Shown here: positions 2,319 through 9,259 of the stretch, piece by piece
How the letters are laid out: every line of letters begins with the position of its first letter
Numbering within the stretch: the first letter of the stretch is position 1
Source: Geopsychrobacter sp.
Lineage (GTDB): Bacteria > Desulfobacterota > Desulfuromonadia > Desulfuromonadales > Geopsychrobacteraceae
Assembly (NCBI GenBank): GCA_030620915.1
Contig: JAUXIR010000028.1
Coordinates: forward strand, 1 to 10,096
DNA: 10,096 nt
Direction: 5' to 3'
Program-made: the position numbers and the translations under genes
Notes under the pieces: model-generated
The model's input: the letters and a program-made list of their open reading frames with translations, nothing else
What the model was told of the DNA's origin: nothing
Databases searched by the model: none

Positions 2319-2951
2319 ATGCCACCGGGCTGTCTACTCTTCGACCTCGACGGCACACTGGTCGATTCATTACCCGACCTGACCAGCGCAATCAATCTGC
2401 TCCGCGCCGACTTTGATTTGGCCGCCCTGAGCAGACCTCAGGTGCGAAACTATGTTGGTGATGGTGCCACCGCCCTGGTACAACGCGCCCTGCCCGATGG
2501 TGACTTTGACCAGCGCAAACTGACCAGCTTTCTCTGCTACTACCAACAACACCTCTGCGAACTGAGTTCTCCCTATCCGGGCATCCGCGAGATGCTTGAG
2601 CAACTCCATGGCTATCCGCTGGCAGTTGTGACCAACAAACCACGGCAGATGGCGGCTCAACTCCTCGAAAACCTGGGCCTGACCCGATATTTCCAGCTGG
2701 TGCTCGGTGGCGACAGTTGCGCGCAAAAAAAGCCCCACCCGGCACCGGTGATTGAAGCACTGCACCAGCTGAAAGCTGAAAACCAAAACAGCCTGATGAT
2801 CGGCGACCACCACACCGACCTTCGCGCCGCTAAGGCTGCCGGGGTACCTGCCTGCTTCTGCAGCTGGGGCTACGGCAATGATGGTGGCGAGACCCCGGCC
2901 TTTGCCGCGTCATCGGTTGCCGAACTCCGGCAGATATTGCTCAATCGATGA
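2319..2951 (+). CDS. gph: HAD-superfamily hydrolase, phosphoglycolate phosphatase-like
   Basis: A 210-residue HAD phosphatase of subfamily I (Gph/PGP-like). Motif I is FDLDGTLVDS with nucleophile Asp9 and acid/base Asp11. Motif II is VVTNKP (Thr105), motif III the KKPHPAP lysine (Lys138), and motif IV IGDHHTDLRAAKAAG (Asp163, Asp167). An alpha-helical cap occupies roughly residues 15-95. The predicted reaction is Mg2+-dependent dephosphorylation of 2-phosphoglycolate, which arises partly from repair of oxidised DNA ends. HAD substrate preference cannot be read reliably from motifs, so the exact substrate is inference. ATG 2319 was preferred; an in-frame TTG at 2310 would overlap the upstream stop and is the alternative. 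The 3' end overlaps the next gene by four bases (ATGA), indicating coupling. Confidence 0.88.
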   Translation: MPPGCLLFDLDGTLVDSLPDLTSAINLLRADFDLAALSRPQVRNYVGDGATALVQRALPDGDFDQRKLTSFLCYYQQHLCELSSPYPGIREMLEQLHGYPLAVVTNKPRQMAAQLLENLGLTRYFQLVLGGDSCAQKKPHPAPVIEALHQLKAENQNSLMIGDHHTDLRAAKAAGVPACFCSWGYGNDGGETPAFAASSVAELRQILLNR

Positions 2952-4249
2952 GTAGCACCCCATTACGCCAACGCGACATCGCCCTGTTCTTCTTCCCCCT
3001 GCTACTCAACGTTCAGCTGATGAGTCTTTCGCATACCATCATCAACGGAGCGTTAGCGCGTTACGCCGACTATGTCACCGCCCTGGCCGGCATGTCGGTC
3101 GCGATGGTGGTTCATCTGTTCATCGCATCCCCGTCTTACCAGAACCACACCGTCACCATCACCATGGTGCGCGGGCACCGCTCATTGCGTGCGGTCTTGA
3201 TATTTGTCGGCCTGATCGCCTGCTATGTTTCTCTGATGCTCGGGCTCATCGCCTTTACCGATCTGGGCGATCTGGTGCTGCTCGACCTGCTCGGTGCCCC
3301 ACCGAAAATCGCCACCGCAGCCCGTGAAGCCCTGCAGCTGTTAGTGCTGCTCCCTTTTTTTACCGGCATTCGGGGCTTTTTTCAGGGTCTGGTCATTCAG
3401 TCGAGACGCACCTCACTCATCTCAATCGCCACCGGCTTACGCGTCGCAGCCCTGCTAGGCTTTCTCGCCCTCGGCAAAGACTGGTTATACGGCGCCCAGC
3501 TCGGCGCCTTCGCGCTGGTCAGCTGTATCATCGTCGAAACCCTGCTGATGGCTTTTTTTGCCTGGCGAGTCCATCTGCCCCTGACTGAGCAGCAGGATGA
3601 AAAATCCACGGCGCAAATCTTTCGCTACGCCCTGCCACTCGCCTACTCGTCATGCCTGCAGCAAACCATCCCGCTGTTGATCAATTCGATCCTCGGCCGA
3701 CTGCCTGATGCGCCACTGGCGCTGGCGGCCTTCGGCGTGATTCGCGGCTTCCTGTTTCTGCTCGCCGGTCCGATGCGCAATCTGCAACAGGTCTACCTGA
3801 CGCTGGTCGATACCTTCGCCGACTATCAGGTCCTGAGGCGCTTCGCGGTGATTGTCGCCCTGGGCCTCGGGCTACTGGTGCTGCTGGTCGCAGGACCTGC
3901 CGCACAACCGATTCTGGGTCAACTGCTCGGGGTTGAGTCCGGCCTGCTCAACTACCTGCGCTTCCCTCTGGCCGGCTGTGCCCTCTTCCCGCTTCTCTAT
4001 GCCATCAGCAACCTGCTGCGCGGCTGGTTCGCCGGAGCACACAAAACCGCCCTGCTCGGTTATTCGACCCTCTTCAAGTGCAGTTTTTTGCTCCTGGTCT
4101 GGTGGCCAATCGTTCAATTCAAACCACCGGTTTCCGGCGCAGCGATCGGCATTGCCCTGTTGCTGTCTGCCGAAGCGATCGAGGCCCTCTACCTGCGCAT
4201 ACAACGCGGTCGCTTGCTTGCTCCAGATGCTGAGATCGCCCTAAAATGA
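2948..4249 (+). CDS. Polytopic inner-membrane protein, MOP/MATE-like exporter or flippase, ANKH-like
   Basis: A 433-residue, very hydrophobic protein with roughly 12 membrane segments, interrupted by a charged loop at residues 211-222 (PLTEQQDEKSTA) that splits it into two similar halves, as in the MOP flippase superfamily. I recognise no MATE or Wzx signature. By eye and from memory it parallels the ANKH/ANK transporter (PF07260): IAFTDLGDLVL (101-111) near the human IAYSDLG region, the FFTGIRGFFQG segment, and the C-terminal LLRGWFAGAHKTALL (356-370) followed by SGAAIGIALLLSAEAIE (396-412). ANKH moves pyrophosphate/citrate/ATP outward; the substrate here is unknown. Its ATG overlaps the stop of the upstream HAD gene, placing it in the same transcript. 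A lipid-linked glycan flippase is the main alternative. Confidence 0.72.
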   Translation: MSSTPLRQRDIALFFFPLLLNVQLMSLSHTIINGALARYADYVTALAGMSVAMVVHLFIASPSYQNHTVTITMVRGHRSLRAVLIFVGLIACYVSLMLGLIAFTDLGDLVLLDLLGAPPKIATAAREALQLLVLLPFFTGIRGFFQGLVIQSRRTSLISIATGLRVAALLGFLALGKDWLYGAQLGAFALVSCIIVETLLMAFFAWRVHLPLTEQQDEKSTAQIFRYALPLAYSSCLQQTIPLLINSILGRLPDAPLALAAFGVIRGFLFLLAGPMRNLQQVYLTLVDTFADYQVLRRFAVIVALGLGLLVLLVAGPAAQPILGQLLGVESGLLNYLRFPLAGCALFPLLYAISNLLRGWFAGAHKTALLGYSTLFKCSFLLLVWWPIVQFKPPVSGAAIGIALLLSAEAIEALYLRIQRGRLLAPDAEIALK

Positions 4250-4253
4250 ACCT

Positions 4254-4430
4254 ATGAGCAAAAACAAAAAACACCCCTGCCCTGACTGTAAGATGTGTCA
4301 GTGGTGCTCGGACGACCGCTGTCGTCTCTGTCTGCGGACTGACTGCCGCAAGAAACTGAGTATCGCCGAGCAGATAGCCCTTTATGAAAAGTTGAACCAG
4401 ACAGAGTCCAACCAGCAGAACCAATCCTGA
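4254..4430 (+). CDS. 58-residue cysteine-rich protein with stacked CxxC motifs (putative metal or Fe-S binding)
   Basis: The ORF starts 4 bases after the stop of the membrane protein gene. It encodes a 58-residue protein with seven cysteines at residues 9, 12, 15, 18, 23, 26 and 31 (CPDCKMCQWC, then CRLC and DC), with His7 just before them. After this comes a basic, helical C-terminal half (KKLSIAEQIALYEKL) and a Gln/Asn-rich tail. The spacing suits two metal sites, either zinc ribbon or iron-sulfur. I do not recognise a named family. No clear Shine-Dalgarno sequence precedes it, consistent with translational coupling to the upstream gene. That it is real is supported by a second, diverged copy of residues 16-48 at 6539-6634, where nine codons differ silently and only four change the residue. 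Bases 4299-4319 are the left arm of a perfect direct repeat. Confidence 0.75.
   Translation: MSKNKKHPCPDCKMCQWCSDDRCRLCLRTDCRKKLSIAEQIALYEKLNQTESNQQNQS
4299..4319 (+). repeat. Left copy of 21-bp perfect direct repeat (putative attachment core)
   Basis: Identical to 6539-6559. It encodes Q-W-C-S-D-D-R in the cysteine-rich gene. Homology stops abruptly on the left side. On the right, similarity continues at only 61 of 78 bases (to 4397/6637). Seven codons without even a silent change, beside 26 codons of which 13 differ, is a sharp boundary like the core of an integration site. Confidence 0.65.
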
Positions 4431-4727
4431 ACCTAAGCGTCGCAGCACCTGGCCTCTACCAGCTGACTCGCCTGCCCGACCAAAGTCATCTTTTTCGCTG
4501 ATGCTACTGCCCGAGAAATGTCCTTACTGACAGGGTCAGGAGAATTAAATGATCAGCTTGAGATCCGCAGGGCAATCCCATGCTCTTGCCGATCCGAACC
4601 TCGCTGTTGCAGTGGAGCGTATGAGCCGTGGGTCGACAGGTGCTTACGATTGATGCCTGAGCCTACGGGAGTCACTTTCCAGTTGCTTGTCTGAAATTTT
4701 CTCATTACTGTGAATTAAACATGTCAT
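4431..4727. other. Non-coding stretch between the cysteine-rich gene and the hipBA control region
   Basis: No convincing gene is seen. The first ~100 bases keep the GC-rich composition of the host, and the composition turns AT-rich near 4690. A short SD-preceded ORF (4549-4653) is listed separately with low confidence. If the island model is right, the left end of the imported DNA is this stretch. Confidence 0.5.
4549..4653 (+). CDS. Possible 34-residue small ORF
   Basis: ATG at 4549 follows a CAGGAGA element (4537-4543) at good spacing and opens a 34-codon frame ending in TGA. The product (starting MISLRSAGQSHALAD) resembles nothing I know, and codon use gives no strong support. It may be the remnant of a gene truncated by rearrangement, or chance. 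Confidence 0.18.
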   Translation: MISLRSAGQSHALADPNLAVAVERMSRGSTGAYD

Positions 4728-4747
4728 AGAGCCCCTATTTAGGCTCT
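4728..4747. promoter_or_regulatory. Palindrome upstream of hipB (distal operator-like site, or terminator)
   Basis: AGAGCC (4728-4733) and GGCTCT (4742-4747) form a perfect 6-bp inverted repeat with an 8-base centre. Read on the minus strand it resembles the two closer palindromes (AAGAGCC-TAAATA-GGGGCTCT against AATAGCCCTAAAAAGGGCT). A T-rich run follows, so a weak intrinsic terminator is an alternative reading. Confidence 0.4.
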
Positions 4748-4767
4748 TATGTTTATTTTTACCTAAC

Positions 4768-4789
4768 AAGAGCTCTAAAAAGGGCCGTT
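4768..4789. promoter_or_regulatory. Second operator-like palindrome for HipB (imperfect)
   Basis: AAGAGCTCT-AAAA-AGGGCCGTT has the same 9-4-9 layout and AAAA centre as the promoter-proximal palindrome, with 6 of 9 arm positions complementary. Its centre is exactly 60 bases upstream of the proximal one, so cooperative binding of two HipB dimers, as in other HipBA systems, is plausible. Confidence 0.45.
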
Positions 4790-4823
4790 ATTTCAAACGG
4801 GAAACCTTTCTGGATAAAAATTC

Positions 4824-4851
4824 TTGCAATAGCCCTAAAAAGGGCTATTAT
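4824..4851 (+). promoter_or_regulatory. Predicted hipBA promoter
   Basis: A -35-like TTGCAA (4824-4829) and a -10-like TATTAT (4846-4851) are 16 bases apart, 40 bases before the hipB ATG. A near-perfect palindrome fills the spacer, the expected arrangement for autorepression. A CATAAT at 4855-4860 is an alternative -10. Confidence 0.5.
4828..4849. promoter_or_regulatory. Proximal HipB operator: 22-bp perfect palindrome
   Basis: AATAGCCCT (4828-4836) and AGGGCTATT (4841-4849) are perfect reverse complements around AAAA. The site overlaps the spacer between the predicted -35 and -10 elements, so bound protein would block RNA polymerase. The natural ligand is the Xre-family HipB encoded just downstream; this is inference from position and symmetry. 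The sequence differs from the E. coli hip operator (TATCC-N8-GGATA). Confidence 0.65.
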
Positions 4852-4890
4852 TTGCATAATCGACTTTCTGTAGACCTTTTGGAGGCTGTT

Positions 4891-5226
4891 ATGGATTATT
4901 ACTATATGTCTGATGAGGCTATCGAAAAAGAGATAGGGAGTCGATTTCACGAGTTGAGGTTGAGAAAAAACCTGACTCAAAAAGAACTCTCAAGACGGAC
5001 TCTTCTTTCAGTCAACGCAATAAAGAACCTGGAGTCTGGGAAGGCGAGGTTGAGCACAGCAGTTGCTGTTCTTCGAGAGCTGAAAGCTTTAGATAATCTA
5101 GACTCATTCATCCCCGATCCTGGCCTCAGCCCTATGCAGCTTGCCAAGCTTCAAGGGCGAAAGCGAAAAAGAGCTAGCGGGAAGCAAAGCAACAAAAAAG
5201 AGCAGGATGAGGTCCCAGAATGGTAA
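4891..5226 (+). CDS. hipB: HipB-like antitoxin, Xre-family helix-turn-helix repressor
   Basis: A 111-residue protein. An Xre/Cro HTH covers about residues 14-70, with LTQKELSRRTLLSVNAIKNL (28-47) as the recognition region. A strongly basic stretch follows (GRKRKRASGK, 89-98) and then an acidic C-terminus ending Glu-Val-Pro-Glu-Trp. The last residue is tryptophan, as I recall for E. coli HipB, whose C-terminal Trp packs against HipA; this supports the assignment. ATG 4891 is chosen because GGAGG (4881-4885) sits 5 bases upstream; the frame is open back to a TTG at 4852, which lies in the promoter. The gene overlaps hipA by 7 bases. The product should dimerise on the palindromes upstream, repress the operon and neutralise HipA. 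Confidence 0.85.
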   Translation: MDYYYMSDEAIEKEIGSRFHELRLRKNLTQKELSRRTLLSVNAIKNLESGKARLSTAVAVLRELKALDNLDSFIPDPGLSPMQLAKLQGRKRKRASGKQSNKKEQDEVPEW

Positions 5227-6533
5227 AACAAGTCCAAACAGCCTATGTAAAGCTTTGGGGAGAGACAGTTGGTGCGGTGTCTTGGCGAGATGCAGGTTAT
5301 GCCGTATTCGAATACGACAAATCTTTTTTGCGTAAAGGGCTAGACCTCTCCCCTGTAATTATGCCGATTGACGACGCCATACGAAGCGACGGTATTTATG
5401 AATTTCCAAGCCTGAACGAAGAAACCTTCAAAGGGCTTCCAGGGCTTCTCGCAGATTGTCTGCCAGACAAGTTTGGCAACAAAATCATTGACGCCTGGTT
5501 GACTCGCCAGGGGCGTGATACGAAAAGCTTTACCCCTGTTGAGCGCCTCTGCTACACGGGAAGGCGAGGAATGGGAGCGCTGGAGTTTTCTCCCACCCTG
5601 AATTCAAGAAAAGAAGAATCAGCACCCGTAGAAATTGCACATCTCGTTGAACTTGCCCAAGCTATTACGACCGAGCGAGACGACCTTGGCCCGAAGCTGG
5701 GGAGCGATGAGAAAGAAAACTCTGACGCTTTACTAGAGATTATCCGGGTAGGAACCTCAGCGGGAGGAGCCAGGGCAAAAGCCGTAATTGCCATGGATTC
5801 CAAGGGGAATATTCGTTCAGGCCAAACTCAAGCCCCCAAGGGGTACTCTTACTGGCTGTTAAAATTTGATGGAGTAAATGACCTGGAGCTTGGTGCTTCA
5901 CAAGGATATGGTCGGATCGAATACGCTTATCACTTAATGGCACGCGCTGCAGGCATAGTCATGTCTGAGTGCGAACTTTTGAAAGAGAGTGGACGTGCTC
6001 ACTTCTTGACGAAGCGGTTTGACCGGGTTGGCGGTGAAAAAATACACATGCAGTCTTTGTGCGGAATAGGGCATTTCGACTTTAACATCGCAGGGGCCTA
6101 CGGTTATGAGCAGGCATTTGCGGTTATGCGTAAATTGAAAATTTCCAAACCAGAAGCCGTTCAGCAATTTCGTAGAATGATTTTCAATGTCGTATCGAGA
6201 AACCAGGACGACCACACAAAAAATATTGCATTTCTGATGGACAAGTCCGGCAAATGGGAACTTTCTCCGGCCTTCGATGTCACATATGCTCACAACCCCA
6301 AGGGGCAGTGGACGAATAGCCACCAAATGACCATTAATGGCAAGAAAGACGCTTTCACTTTGAAAGATTTTGTAAGGGTGGGAGAGTCGATAGGCGTAAA
6401 GAATTCATTAGAGATTGTCGCTGAAATCGTGGAAGTCGTCAGTCAGTGGTCAACCTACGCTCAAGAGGCTGGGTTGGGTGCCGTTGGAATCAAAAACATT
6501 GGGCGCTTTCACCGGCTCTCTTTTGAAAAGTGA
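5220..6533 (+). CDS. hipA: HipA-like serine/threonine kinase toxin
   Basis: A 437-residue protein, matching E. coli HipA in length. The N-terminal HipA domain covers roughly 1-125 (YVKLWGETVGAV; GLPGLLADCLPDKFGN at 72-87; RRGMGALEF). The kinase core follows: GTSAGGARAK (178-187), the glycine-rich autophosphorylation/P-loop block; WLLKFDG with Lys215; HFLTKRFDR (261-269); the catalytic loop RNQDDHTKN (327-335) with Asp, His and Asn; and the metal-binding LSPAFDVT (348-355). All key residues appear intact, so the toxin should be active. Known HipA kinases phosphorylate glutamyl-tRNA synthetase or other aminoacyl-tRNA synthetases, causing growth arrest and persistence; the target here is unknown. 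It overlaps hipB by 7 bases, with AGGATGAGG just upstream as ribosome binding site. Base composition is more AT-rich than in the flanking operons, suggesting transfer. Confidence 0.93.
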   Translation: MVKQVQTAYVKLWGETVGAVSWRDAGYAVFEYDKSFLRKGLDLSPVIMPIDDAIRSDGIYEFPSLNEETFKGLPGLLADCLPDKFGNKIIDAWLTRQGRDTKSFTPVERLCYTGRRGMGALEFSPTLNSRKEESAPVEIAHLVELAQAITTERDDLGPKLGSDEKENSDALLEIIRVGTSAGGARAKAVIAMDSKGNIRSGQTQAPKGYSYWLLKFDGVNDLELGASQGYGRIEYAYHLMARAAGIVMSECELLKESGRAHFLTKRFDRVGGEKIHMQSLCGIGHFDFNIAGAYGYEQAFAVMRKLKISKPEAVQQFRRMIFNVVSRNQDDHTKNIAFLMDKSGKWELSPAFDVTYAHNPKGQWTNSHQMTINGKKDAFTLKDFVRVGESIGVKNSLEIVAEIVEVVSQWSTYAQEAGLGAVGIKNIGRFHRLSFEK

Positions 6534-6661
6534 TACACCAGTGGTGCTCGGACGACCGCGGCCGTCTCTGCTTGCGCACTGACGGCCGCAAAAAACTGAG
6601 CATCGCCGAACAGATCGCCTTGTTCGAAGCGCTGAACTCCCCTGAAGTCGATAAAAAATGA
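6530..6661 (+). pseudogene. 5'-truncated second copy of the cysteine-rich gene
   Basis: From 6539 the frame reads Q-W-C-S-D-D-R-G-R-L-C-L-R-T-D-G-R-K-K-L and is homologous to residues 16-48 of the protein at 4254-4430. The first 15 residues, including three cysteines, are absent; the homologous part is cut exactly at the 21-bp repeat just after hipA. Two further cysteines (positions 23 and 31 of the intact protein) are glycine here. The only possible start in frame is the GTG at 6530, which overlaps the hipA stop (GTGA) and would give a 43-residue product by coupling; I consider it a remnant. Of 26 codons after the repeat, nine differ silently and four change the residue, so the copies diverged under selection before being brought together. 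Confidence 0.65.
6539..6559 (+). repeat. Right copy of 21-bp perfect direct repeat
   Basis: Identical to 4299-4319 and placed five bases after the hipA stop codon. Similarity begins here without any upstream homology and continues at about 78% identity into the truncated gene copy. Confidence 0.65.
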
Positions 6662-6972
6662 TCCACCAGCCCGGTTCAAATTGACAATCGACCAGAGCCT
6701 TGGAATAATTGGACGATATTTATCTGGAGGGTCTCATCAGTGCCAAATCAACCAGGCCAACTCCATCCAATCCTTCAGGCCTTGCTTGTTACAATTTTCA
6801 CTTGAGGGGATGAGCGCCGCCGGTGCTGCGGTCGTTTTCAGTACTGCACAAAGAAAATCGTAAATCCGTTGGATTGGATGCTCGGGTTCACCGTCATTAC
6901 GGTCCGAGATGTTGCGCTCGGCTAATACGAACGGCTCCTACACGCAATCAAAAGCAAAGAAAGGCTCAACAA
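6662..6972. other. 311-base stretch without a recognisable gene
   Basis: Frames here are short and without coding character. A separated 10-bp inverted repeat, CATCCAATCC (6764-6773) and GGATTGGATG (6871-6880), is the only structure I see, and with 97 bases between the arms it may be chance. The stretch may be the original downstream flank of the interrupted cysteine-rich gene. Confidence 0.4.
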
Positions 6973-7191
6973 ATGCCAAAGGAGTTTCTCGCCTGTCCAC
7001 GTTGCGCATGCCTGAAATTTTATTCTCGTGGGCCCGAGGGGAAAATGATTTTTTTCCAGATCAACGCAGACTTCCGGCCGGTCGCTACCGGGATCAGCAC
7101 CTCGGATTTGAGTAAAGCCGATTTTTCACCGATTCATTGTACCGGCTGTTCCTGGTCGGGAGAAATTAAAGACCTGAGGGTCAACGGTTGA
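6973..7191 (+). CDS. Small zinc-ribbon-like protein of unknown function
   Basis: A 72-residue protein starting MPKEFLACPRCACLKFY. It has CPRC-A-C (Cys8, Cys11, Cys13) at the N-terminus and CTGC (Cys56, Cys59) near the C-terminus, followed by SWSGEIKDL. The paired CxxC knuckles about 45 residues apart are typical of small zinc ribbons; a Cys-x-x-Cys...Cys-x-x-Cys-x-W-x-G arrangement is common in them. ATG 6973 is preceded by AGAAAGG (6958-6964) at 8 bases, which decides the start; the frame is open further upstream but without protein character. It stands alone between the HipBA island and the signalling operon. No partner or function can be inferred. Confidence 0.65.
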   Translation: MPKEFLACPRCACLKFYSRGPEGKMIFFQINADFRPVATGISTSDLSKADFSPIHCTGCSWSGEIKDLRVNG

Positions 7192-7253
7192 AACGTCAAT
7201 TGGCGGCAGGTTGATCGAGCAGCTGGGGATAACACCGGAAACTTCATTAAATT

Positions 7254-7284
7254 TTGTGAAAAATCAGCAAAACAGTGCTATATT
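7254..7284 (+). promoter_or_regulatory. Possible promoter of the signalling operon
   Basis: TTGTGA (7254-7259) and CTATAT/TATATT (7278-7284) are separated by 18-19 bases. A transcript from here would start near 7291 and carry the 7303-7343 hairpin in a leader of about 120 bases before the response regulator. The match is moderate. Confidence 0.35.
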
Positions 7285-7302
7285 CGCACCCAATTCACCG
7301 GC

Positions 7303-7343
7303 ATATAAGGCATGTTTTGTGCTGTTAAAATCATGCCTTATAT
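7303..7343. promoter_or_regulatory. Perfect 12-bp inverted repeat in the leader of the response-regulator operon
   Basis: ATATAAGGCATG (7303-7314) and CATGCCTTATAT (7332-7343) are exact reverse complements around 17 bases. The loop can add a TTTT/AAAA pairing with one bulged base, giving a long AT-rich hairpin. No U-run follows, so it is not a standard terminator. It lies 66 bases before the ATG at 7410, either as a protein-binding site or an RNA leader structure. Confidence 0.6.
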
Positions 7344-7409
7344 CTACTCATAGAGACTGTTGTAATGTCGCAGAACTAAATAACCGACTCAGTTAAGGAA
7401 GGGGCCAAA

Positions 7410-7778
7410 ATGGCAAAGATACTGATTGCAGAGGACAGTGACACCGAACTGGCATTTCTCCTGGAAGTGCTTAAAGAAACCGATCACGACTTGACCGTTA
7501 CGCGTGATGGACTTGAAGCCGAGGCAGCTGCCAAGGCAGGCAACTTCGACCTGATTATTCTCGATGTTATCATGCCGGGCAAGAATGGTTTTCAGGTTTG
7601 CCGTACGCTCAAGAAAGACCCTGCCCACAAAGACACGCCGATTATCCTGCTGACCTCAAAATCTGAGAATAGCGACAAGTTCTGGGGCATGAAACAGGGA
7701 GCAGAAGAGTACATCACCAAACCCTATAATCCAGTCGATCTGCTATTAGCAATTCGGCAGCATCTGGGAGCAAAATAA
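7410..7778 (+). CDS. Single-domain response regulator, CheY/PilH-like
   Basis: A 122-residue protein made of one receiver domain. The acidic pocket is Glu8-Asp9 (ILIAEDSD), the phosphoacceptor Asp52 (DLIILDVIMPG), the switch Thr82 (IILLTSKS) and the conserved Lys104 (YITKPYNP). The MPGKNGFQVCRTLKKDP and WGMKQGAEEYITKPY segments are typical of the PilH/PilG branch of twitching-motility and chemosensory regulators. There is no output domain, so it must signal by binding a partner or act as a phosphate sink; no histidine kinase is encoded nearby. AAGGAAGGGG (7396-7404) is a strong ribosome binding site. The stop shares one base with the ATG of the next gene (TAATG), so the two are translated together. 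Confidence 0.9.
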   Translation: MAKILIAEDSDTELAFLLEVLKETDHDLTVTRDGLEAEAAAKAGNFDLIILDVIMPGKNGFQVCRTLKKDPAHKDTPIILLTSKSENSDKFWGMKQGAEEYITKPYNPVDLLLAIRQHLGAK

Positions 7779-8350
7779 TGGATCTCGGCGAGGTACTGAA
7801 AACCTACCTCGGTGGTGACCAACAGGGCCAACTTGTCATCAAATTCGTCGGTGAGAACCATCTGTGCAAGATATCTGTCGAAGACGGACAGGCAATCTAC
7901 CTGACCCTGGGCTCGATGGGACCGGATGAAACCCTCAATCAGATTGTCGGCAAGGTCGCAGAATGGAGCAATTTCATCAAGGGAATGCCGACGCGCAAAC
8001 GTCTGGATGAACCGATCAATCAACTTCTGTTGCAGATTGCAGGGGCTGCGCCCCTGGCTGAGGGTGAAGTTCCGCTGGCCGCGACAACAGCGGCAGATGA
8101 TGCCGTGACGGCTGAGGTCGTCATTAAAGACACGATGATAGACACGGCCCGGATAAAGGCAGTGAGCGAGCGGTTCACCGATCTGGTCGGACCCCTTGCC
8201 ACGATTCTCACCGAAAAGATCTGCAGCAATCTGGCCCATACCGATGGGTCCTCAATGAGCGCTGCGACCTACAGTCGTTTCATTGCCGCATTAGCCGCCG
8301 AGGTCCCTGAAAATGATCGCCAAGGCTTTGTTGACGCTGCTGCACAGTAG
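7778..8350 (+). CDS. DUF4388/PATAN-like regulatory protein with a C-terminal helical domain
   Basis: A 190-residue soluble protein. The N-terminal part (1-87) follows the DUF4388/PATAN pattern: a beta-rich segment (GQLVIKFVGENHLCKISVEDGQAIYLTLG), then helices (DETLNQIVGKVAEWSNFIKG) and a conserved terminal helix (LDEPINQLLLQI). A flexible Ala-rich linker (about 88-118) leads to a helical C-terminal domain (124-187; SERFTDLVGPLATILTEKI ... FIAALAAEVPENDRQGFVDAA). From memory this resembles the 'GP-hA-hhh ... L-A-x-E-I-P' domain often found at the C-terminus of bacterial Ser/Thr kinases and cyclases. PATAN-type proteins couple to response regulators in gliding and phototaxis systems, so with the preceding regulator it plausibly forms a switch pair. 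It starts on the last base of that gene's stop codon. Domain assignment is by eye. Confidence 0.65.
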   Translation: MDLGEVLKTYLGGDQQGQLVIKFVGENHLCKISVEDGQAIYLTLGSMGPDETLNQIVGKVAEWSNFIKGMPTRKRLDEPINQLLLQIAGAAPLAEGEVPLAATTAADDAVTAEVVIKDTMIDTARIKAVSERFTDLVGPLATILTEKICSNLAHTDGSSMSAATYSRFIAALAAEVPENDRQGFVDAAAQ

Positions 8351-8380
8351 TCAACCTGATCAACCCTGGGAGGGTTAAGC

Positions 8381-9259
8381 ATGCTGAGAAACATGAGTAT
8401 CCGCAAACGCCTGTTGGTCATCCTGACCCTGGTCTACATCTTCTCAATGGTCGGCGCTATCGCCGGCGGCTACTACATCTTCGACCGTGATTCGGTGCGT
8501 GAAGCAAAAGAGAAAACCGAACTTTTCACCACAGTTATGACCGCCAATCAGAAGTTTATGGCGCGCAATGTTCGCCCTGAAATCATGGATCTCCTCCCCG
8601 ACACCTACTTTCCTGCGGCAACCGTCGGCATTGTAATGATGGGCGAGGCCGCCCAACTGATTCAAGAAGATTATCCTGAATATATCTTCAAGATTGCCTC
8701 ACCAAACCCACTGAATCCGGACAATCGCTCTGATTCCTTCGAAAATTCGATTATCGCCGGGTTCGATAACGGCGACTATGAGGAATGGGCAGGAACAGTC
8801 ACCAAGGCAGGCGAACGCTTTTACGCAACGGCCGTTCCGATTGAGGCCCGCAAAAGCTGTATCTGGTGTCATGACACCCCGGAGGTTGCCCATCCGGATA
8901 TGGTTGAGGAATACGGAACGGAATCAGGTTATGGCTACGAAGTCGGCGATGTCGTCGGCGGACGCTTTATCTATGTTTCGATGACCGCTACCGACGAAAT
9001 CACCATGCAGAAACTGGCCATCTTCGGCGGCGGAATCAGTCTGCTGTTTCTGATTGCCATGTTGTTCATCGACCGGATCGTTATCAGCACCGTGGTCAAG
9101 CCGATCGAAGAGATTGTCGAGGTCGCGGTAGATATCAGTCGGGGAAAAATGGATCGCGAATTTAATGTCAAGGGTAACGATGAGATTAAGTTGTTGGCCG
9201 ATGCCTTTAACCGAATGAAGGTCTCTCTGGCTAAAGCGATGGATATTCTTCGCAAGTAA
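8381..9259 (+). CDS. Membrane sensor with periplasmic c-type heme domain (Tll0287/DUF3365-like) and HAMP, no output domain
   Basis: A 292-residue protein. TM1 lies at about 10-33, a periplasmic domain at 34-210, TM2 at about 211-236, and a HAMP domain fills the rest (237-289; VVKPIEEIVEVAVDISRGKMD, then DEIKLLADAFNRMK). The periplasmic part has CIWCH (Cys160, Cys163, His164), a covalent heme c site, in a fold of the Tll0287-like/DUF3365 type (PATYFPAATVG-like LLPDTYFPAA; FKIASPNPLNPDNR; GERFYATAVPIEARKSCIWCH). Such domains are heme redox or gas sensors on chemoreceptors and histidine kinases of Geobacter-type bacteria. Here the protein ends three residues after HAMP, with no MCP or kinase output. 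GGGAGGG (8368-8374) six bases before the ATG fixes the start. It follows the response regulator pair by 30 bases and precedes a cytochrome c. Confidence 0.85.
   Translation: MLRNMSIRKRLLVILTLVYIFSMVGAIAGGYYIFDRDSVREAKEKTELFTTVMTANQKFMARNVRPEIMDLLPDTYFPAATVGIVMMGEAAQLIQEDYPEYIFKIASPNPLNPDNRSDSFENSIIAGFDNGDYEEWAGTVTKAGERFYATAVPIEARKSCIWCHDTPEVAHPDMVEEYGTESGYGYEVGDVVGGRFIYVSMTATDEITMQKLAIFGGGISLLFLIAMLFIDRIVISTVVKPIEEIVEVAVDISRGKMDREFNVKGNDEIKLLADAFNRMKVSLAKAMDILRK

Follow-up and report, generated by a model that had tools for sequence, protein, structure and literature searches.

How a toxin-antitoxin (TA) operon comes to lie between two copies of the same small gene is the question raised by a 10,096-nucleotide stretch of DNA from Geopsychrobacter sp. 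(hereafter the window; positions 1-10096 of contig C232, from a metagenome-assembled genome (MAG) that is 70% complete and comprises 378 contigs). Here, a hipBA operon is bracketed by an intact and a truncated copy of a small cysteine-rich gene, referred to as cys. A first-pass annotation proposed that an element had integrated into a protein-coding gene, which it restored with its own 3′ end, and that this gene may represent an integration hotspot. The insertion and the restored gene are supported by an empty site in relatives and by a swapped gene tail, whereas the hotspot is not borne out. In our judgment, it is fairly probable that a DNA circle bearing hipBA and the 3′ part of cys from a related bacterium was integrated by one crossover, leaving an islet with a TA pair as its only cargo that resembles a cis-mobilizable element (CIME).

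The two copies of cys match each other within the window with a BLAST E value of 1.7e-23, and their similarity is therefore not due to chance. As first described, 21 bp are identical at the same codons of both copies, homology is lost to the left of this repeat, nucleotides 67-144 of the gene match at 61 of 78 positions, and hipBA lies between a complete left gene and a right copy devoid of its 5′ end (Table 1). The right copy begins at codon 16, its cysteine losses being RCR to RGR and DCR to DGR, and the junction in front of it consists of the hipA stop codon, 5 nt, and then the repeat, with no homology further left. The perfect 21-mer encodes a strongly conserved block, QWCSDDR; among 80 relatives, it occurs exactly in 2, with one mismatch in 6, and with two mismatches in 13. 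With the 82 matches of the 99-nt repeat placed in random order, a run of at least 21 is expected in 20% of cases; for a run that opens the repeat, the figure is 1.2%.

Table 1. Features of the hipBA-cys locus and its flanks (positions in the window).
Feature	Position	Strand	Description
MATE/ANKH-like transporter gene, conserved upstream neighbour	2948..4249	+	Pfam ANKH 5.5e-7; MatE 1e-4, below cut-off
cys, small cysteine-rich gene, intact left copy	4254..4430	+	58 aa, no Pfam/NCBIfam family
21-bp perfect repeat, left copy	4299..4319	+	Identity with right copy; conserved codon block
99-nt direct repeat, left copy, 83%	4299..4397	+	Ungapped pairing with 6539-6637
'A' tail of cys (KLNQTESNQQNQS) and 33 bp of 3′ flank	4391..4463	+	68/73 with G019/L003, with no other locus compared at that stage
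Left part of the insert, before hipB	4464..4870	.	No match among 446 loci compared (copies from the window itself excluded)
Three palindromic sites upstream of hipB	4725..4853	.	Direct reading of the sequence; two belong to one repeat family
hipB antitoxin gene (helix-turn-helix)	4891..5226	+	Pfam HTH_31 5e-8, HTH_3 1e-7; couple_hipB 4e-6, below its cut-off
hipA toxin gene, open throughout	5220..6533	+	Pfam HipA_C 9e-50, Couple_hipA 3e-18
21-bp perfect repeat, right copy	6539..6559	+	Identity with left copy
cys, truncated right copy, native 3′ end ('B' tail)	6539..6661	+	Codons 1-15 missing, two cysteines lost
Native cys 3′ flank and ZIP transporter gene remnant	6662..6888	+	Aligns with L061 (to 6888) and L009 (to 6850)
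znr, small CxxC protein, native downstream gene	6973..7191	+	Orthologues 65-72% identical in G021-G024

The state of the locus before the insertion can be read from other members of the genus, whose loci were assigned to genomes by coordinates (L003 = G019, L004 = G023, L005 = G024, L009 = G022, and L061 = G021). When window positions 4242-4298 and 6539-6888 are joined, the resulting sequence aligns unbroken to L061 (407 of 407 nt), L009 (345 nt), L005 (241 nt), and L004 (242 nt), whereas the left copy as it stands aligns to the same four loci over only 131-155 nt. Because the joined flanks align without a break to single-copy relatives, the locus was formerly a single cys gene, and the empty site that the first-pass annotation proposed to look for is present in four genus members. 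The right fragment is thus the old 3′ end of an ordinary single cys gene together with its old 3′ flank. A single cys copy lies downstream of the MATE gene in G017, G021, G022, and G023, separated from it by a long open reading frame (ORF) in G021 and G023; in G024, the MATE side lies past the contig end. The fifth genome, G017, which is complete, shows the same single-copy synteny, and the DNA alignment of neither form passes the gene end there. Throughout the 80 cys loci, neither a second cys copy nor hipA or hipB was detected in the flanks compared, which are short in some loci.

The two copies also differ in their tails. The right fragment and the four relatives (L004, L005, L009, and L061, whose tail type it resembles) end in types like LNSPEVDKK, and the left copy ends in KLNQTESNQQNQS. 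We therefore favour a chimeric left copy, in which a native 5′ part is fused to an imported 3′ part whose donor was probably a close relative. In the proposed mechanism, an incoming circle carrying hipBA and the 3′ part of cys from a related bacterium would have recombined once with the chromosomal cys gene, within the conserved 3′ half of the latter. The upstream half would have gained a new, complete 3′ end and become the left copy, and the native 3′ end with its downstream sequence would have been displaced beyond hipBA, where it decayed to the truncated right copy. A single crossover of a circle bearing the 3′ end of the gene would yield just this layout, in which the intact gene has acquired a new tail while the native tail and its flank lie on the far side. 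Integrative elements are placed at gene 3′ ends in the same way, although here the addiction pair is all that lies between the two ends. The crossover may have been carried out by a site-specific recombinase, either lost from the islet or acting in trans, and hipBA may have persisted through the toxicity of its loss.

The cargo has the domains of a type II HipBA system, including Couple_hipA and HipA_C, and its catalytic stretches DDHTKN and SPAFD align with solved HipT chains. It also shows the layout of a TA pair, with hipB (start codon assigned by reading) directly upstream of hipA and overlapping it (hipB end 5226, hipA start 5220). These two genes are the only large ORFs between the repeats. 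The closest hipBA relatives are found in G058 (86%) and G056 (84%), both of another family, and their homology is restricted to positions 4871-6541; therefore, they reveal no larger parent element. Against the plasmid collection, hipA matched 713 records, every one below 60% identity. Three palindromes upstream of hipB (AGAGCC-N8-GGCTCT, GAGCTCTAAAAAGGGCCG, and TAGCCCTAAAAAGGGCTA) are probably HipB operators; hipB of the nearest hipBA relative, L130, is likewise preceded by a palindrome of this kind, AGCCTTATTTAAGGCT.

Although the insertion is supported, the target does not behave as a hotspot. Of 136 genomes of the order, 94 carry the cys gene, which occurs in two copies only in the window's genome (1/94), a count that an attachment site too short for protein search would escape. 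Nor is other cargo seen between duplicated cys copies in other strains, two copies being found in none of the 93 other cys-bearing genomes. A tyrosine-recombinase profile built from 30 proteins, which in a control recovered 11 ORFs in 6 of 7 diverse loci, finds none when applied to the window and the 80 cys loci (6602 ORFs in all); this agrees with the first-pass statement that the locus carries no recombinase, and we reject cys as an integration hotspot on both counts. No Phage_integrase match occurs anywhere in the window's genome, G000 (70% complete), and no integrase-bearing relative was found at the cys target (136 genomes; 80 cys loci). Two other types of element were considered. An autonomous tyrosine-recombinase element was set aside, as the profile finds no integrase gene inside the insert, and so was a DNA transposon, since, of 66 inverted repeats, the 25 longest include none that pairs the two ends of the insert, and there is no further large ORF. 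Furthermore, searches of the phage, plasmid, and IMG/VR collections returned no cys match at the thresholds applied.

The feature that recurs is the cargo, not the target: HipA and some other TA toxins are bracketed by repeats, part of which are copies of gene 3′ ends. Direct repeats were sought by blastn (E <= 1e-3) between 2-kb flanks, in direct orientation only, with hipA bounds taken from the tblastn span in a first set of loci and from the ORF in a second, and with exclusion of loci whose flanks were shorter than 300 bp (5/48 and 2/60, respectively). Such repeats flank 30 of 101 HipA loci (11/43 and 19/58), compared with 6 of 116 control ORFs of 300-520 aa in the same loci (5/72 and 1/44; Fisher 1e-6) and 8 of 190 ORFs in cys loci (Fisher 3e-9). 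A stricter version (repeats of at least 60 bp, E < 1e-8) gives 6/36 for hipA vs 2/143. In a test of ±1.2 kb, 17 of 77 TA toxins have flanking repeats (HipA 5/28, Fic 5/25, ParE 7/24), whereas none of 26 glycosyltransferases does (p 0.006); its HipA loci overlap the first survey set, and loci with no usable ORF or flank numbered 2/30 for HipA, 5/30 for Fic, 6/30 for ParE, and 4/30 for glycosyltransferases. The window is counted among the HipA loci (29/100 and 4/27 without it), and the loci are partly dependent, as with the G017 paralogues and the tandem duplication L249. Sorting into repeat types covered the HipA positives; the 6 positive control ORFs include a TA toxin, the L227 fic gene. Among the ParE repeats, several resemble dispersed genomic repeats (L424, L442).

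Hand reading took in 25 of the 30 positives, leaving out L249, L268, L329, L331, and L364. In 9 of the 25 (window included), the repeats consist of terminators or of the 3′ ends of tRNA or protein genes; the others include copies of hipB/hipA ends, and those of L338 and L360 are short copies at ORF ends. Start-to-start spacing of the repeats is 1838-2535 bp in nine hipA cases and 5077 bp in L261, the search windows being short. The labels oleD, tRNA-Pro (L285), and tRNA (L417) were given by reading, and ARAGORN called neither L285 nor L417 a tRNA. Integron cassettes were considered and rejected, because the nameable repeats are tRNA, gene, or terminator sequences; the repeated units of L238 are left unassigned.

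Several individual cases resemble the window. In L234, hipBA lies at a pyridoxal-decarboxylase gene with a repeat of 102 bp (94%), and a terminator-like hairpin follows the fragment; the sequence inspected downstream of the intact copy has no such hairpin. In L381, hipA lies at a GFA-family gene, also with a 102-bp repeat (84%). A different toxin is involved in G056, where a fic gene has an intact epimerase gene on one side and, on the other, a copy of the epimerase 3′ end (85 bp, 88%); by comparison with G058, the native flank follows the copy, and the intact gene has a new flank. Additionally, hipA is flanked by 3′ ends of tRNA-Ser CGA in L253 (an exact repeat of 21 bp) and L267, by those of tRNA-Leu in L263 and L340, and by a tRNA-Met terminator repeat in L339.

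Other arrangements were noted beside these. In L330, the last of the nine, hipBA is enclosed by a palindromic, terminator-like sequence of 41 bp present in two copies (95%; 3007-3047 / 4940-4980), and each of the convergent neighbouring genes thus keeps one terminator. L261 contains a 5.1-kb islet (4001-9125) at tRNA-Gly(GCC), outside the 2-kb search, with copies of tRNA-Gly and terminator at its ends; it holds hipBA and a TOTE conflict-system primase-helicase gene, and no tyrosine recombinase was found in it. An identical 93-bp repeat occurs in L270 (650-742 / 2323-2415), where it makes the last residues of a hipA ORF identical to the C-terminus of an ORF upstream of hipB. Within 6 kb of L227 (6431-12383) lie fic between epimerase 3′-end copies, hipBA, and an AbiTii-family ORF with a 33-bp repeat (88%), apparently as separate small inserts. 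The cys repeat of the window (from 4299) and the epimerase repeat of L227 (from 6431) have 11 of 12 bases in common at their starts (CAGTGGTGCTCG / CAGTGCTGCTCG); this shared motif has a simulated probability of 0.0003 for the pair, but the comparison is post hoc and the motif is seen in none of the other repeats inspected, so that we give it no weight.

What kind of recombination would produce such islets can be approached from the repeats. tRNA 3′ ends are the usual mark of tyrosine-recombinase integration, and a repeat of 21 bp, a length typical of integrase sites, is too short to be recombined efficiently by RecA. Site-specific recombination is thus indicated by the cases at tRNA 3′ ends, whose repeats go down to 21 bp. 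An imperfect repeat of 99 nt and the failure to detect a recombinase would, on the other hand, also be compatible with RecA. Two histories fit: either large islands decayed until only the pair was left, its loss being toxic, or small units were mobilized in trans. That the spacing stays near 2 kb speaks only weakly for the second, because the 2-kb search window itself favours small units. We tentatively suggest, as a possibility for stand-alone chromosomal TA modules in general, that they spread as recombinase-less islets with a borrowed 3′ end of a gene, tRNA, or terminator, enter a new host at the corresponding 3′ end by recombination in trans or by RecA, and are kept by addiction. As part of this suggestion, hipBA-cys would be one of a class comprising hipBA, fic, and perhaps parE islets. 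We regard the wider recurrence as the most interesting, if provisional, result.

Several observations weigh against integration of a circle by a site-specific step, or against its generality. The 21-mer should not be read as a proven attachment (att) core, since it is a conserved codon block. Repeats made of 3′ ends or terminators were seen by hand at only 9 of 101 hipA loci, and 16 of the 25 repeats read are dispersed, duplicated, unclassified, or borderline (L338, L360); L339 is weak (76%, E 0.001), L239 has a mirror layout with the repeat at a gene 5′ end, and the genomes are mostly MAGs. Apart from the window, the first 47 HipA loci (those preceding the later set of 60) were scanned over up to 5 kb per side, and no tyrosine recombinase was detected by the profile, which missed 1 of 7 control loci (L220). 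Because none was detected at the locus or in these 47 loci, site-specific recombination is here only inferred. The sister genome G019 also fits imperfectly: it has the A tail and a single cys copy, lacks znr and the operon that follows, and aligns better with the left copy as it stands (222 nt, 86%) than with the joined flanks (156 nt, 79%). Its contig stops 112 bp after cys, running into a 61-bp match to window positions 7241-7301. A deletion may have removed the islet from G019, or else the A tail may simply be the ordinary allele of a sister lineage, and A-like tails are also present in P0002 and P0010.

Some of these observations agree with an insertion of RecA type, which requires no site-specific recombinase and which we consider rather unlikely for the window. 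It would proceed either by homology on one side and illegitimate joining on the other, or by an ordinary single crossover of a circle; in one variant, homology-facilitated illegitimate recombination, the incoming hipBA lay downstream of a cys gene with an A tail. The length and imperfection of the repeat (99 nt, 83%), the existence of the A tail in G019, P0002, and P0010, and the lack of a tyrosine recombinase in the HipA loci tested agree with such an event, as do L239 and the terminator-only L330, both atypical as integrase sites. It accounts poorly for the several HipA cases at tRNA 3′ ends, with repeats down to the 21 bp of L253.

Local rearrangement, in which ancestral tandem cys copies with different tail types were entered later by hipBA and the right copy was truncated afterwards, appears improbable. 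Both tail types do occur in the genus, and the downstream region is fluid, with ZIP lost or kept and with znr and its neighbours lost in G019. However, two copies are found in none of the 80 cys loci (flanks compared) and none of the 93 other cys-bearing genomes, and the truncation lies 5 nt past the hipA stop codon, like an insertion junction. An assembly artefact, in which the shared 21-mer has led to a false join of two genomes or two assembly paths in the contig, is very improbable: the MAG is in 378 contigs and 21 is a common minimum k-mer length of assemblers, but the two halves are equidistant from relatives (MATE 80% and downstream 79% to L004, 71% and 71% to L009), and the layout recurs in other genomes.

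Integration of a circle, the reading that we favour, places the islet close to the CIMEs. These are described as decayed integrative and conjugative or mobilizable elements (ICEs/IMEs) that have kept their att sites while their recombination and transfer genes are gone (PMC5704250, PMC7563491). According to PMC7563491, classical CIMEs carry cargo in 1.2-13 kb and are parts of composite islands located at rpmG, rpsI, fda, or rplL 3′ ends; lone CIMEs at a tRNA-Lys gene in S. agalactiae are cited there, and the method of that study is stated to be unable to identify single CIMEs. In the window, likewise, cargo lies between two copies of a target-gene 3′ end, the gene is restored, and no tyrosine recombinase is detected. 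The 99-nt repeats, as putative att sites, lie at the 3′ half of cys and the empty site exists in four relatives; hipB and hipA are the sole large ORFs between them, and the recombinase profile is empty in the window. By this structure, the islet may be called CIME-like. It is set apart from the CIMEs reported by its cargo, a TA pair alone, and its target is a small cysteine-rich gene.

HipAB on integrated DNA is known from Shewanella putrefaciens CN-32, in which GI21, within the 48-kb CGI48, carries HipAB, which helps island maintenance (PMC8978831). GI21 lies in a composite island at tRNA-Trp, its relatives integrate in yicC, and CN-32 islands are excised upon expression of integrase and excisionase (PMC8978831). 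The window locus differs in that it keeps hipBA only. Stand-alone TA operons at particular intergenic sites, as in the window, are also described for chromosomal type II modules of E. coli (folA-apaH, relA-mazG, and dinB sites), and the portion of PMC7167474 consulted includes no flanking 3′-end copies of neighbouring genes, in contrast to the window. The same 2020 review calls the mechanisms of movement and integration of TA systems unelucidated. A search of open-licence PubMed Central (PMC) literature, at the level of titles and abstract starts among the matches listed, returned no TA modules bracketed by 3′-end copies of a neighbouring gene. At the window, the insertion scar is readable, with the old 3′ end of the neighbouring gene on one side and the new one on the other. 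Some other TA units of related bacteria are likewise enclosed by similar gene-end copies, through which TA movement could be put to the test; if the pattern holds, junctions, donors, and recombinases become directly searchable, and TA islets could be dated and traced via their swapped tails.

The genes around the islet follow the order trmFO, maf, yggS, gph, MATE-like, cys, hipB, hipA, cys fragment, ZIP remnant, and znr, beyond which lie a response regulator, orf190, HAMP, cytochrome c, and EamA; several of these labels were assigned by reading of the proteins. The first-pass annotation had missed the native sequence 3′ of the right cys fragment, consisting of the start of the ZIP gene, znr, and the response-regulator operon. 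The MATE gene is also upstream of cys in L003, L004, L009, L061, and G017. The ZIP gene is intact in L061 (Pfam Zip 8e-24) and L009 and mostly deleted in the window, and the gene order at znr is shared with L004, L005, L009, and L061. The znr product has 72 aa and no Pfam/NCBIfam family, and its match in G017 contains two stops. An Rfam search of the window gave no match. A long lipoprotein-like ORF of 865-888 aa on the opposite strand, absent from the window and L009 and without a Pfam family for its L004 protein, lies upstream of cys in L004 (2992-5658), L061 (3070-5667), and L005 (193-2804), situated between the MATE gene and cys in the first two and present as two split ORFs in the third.

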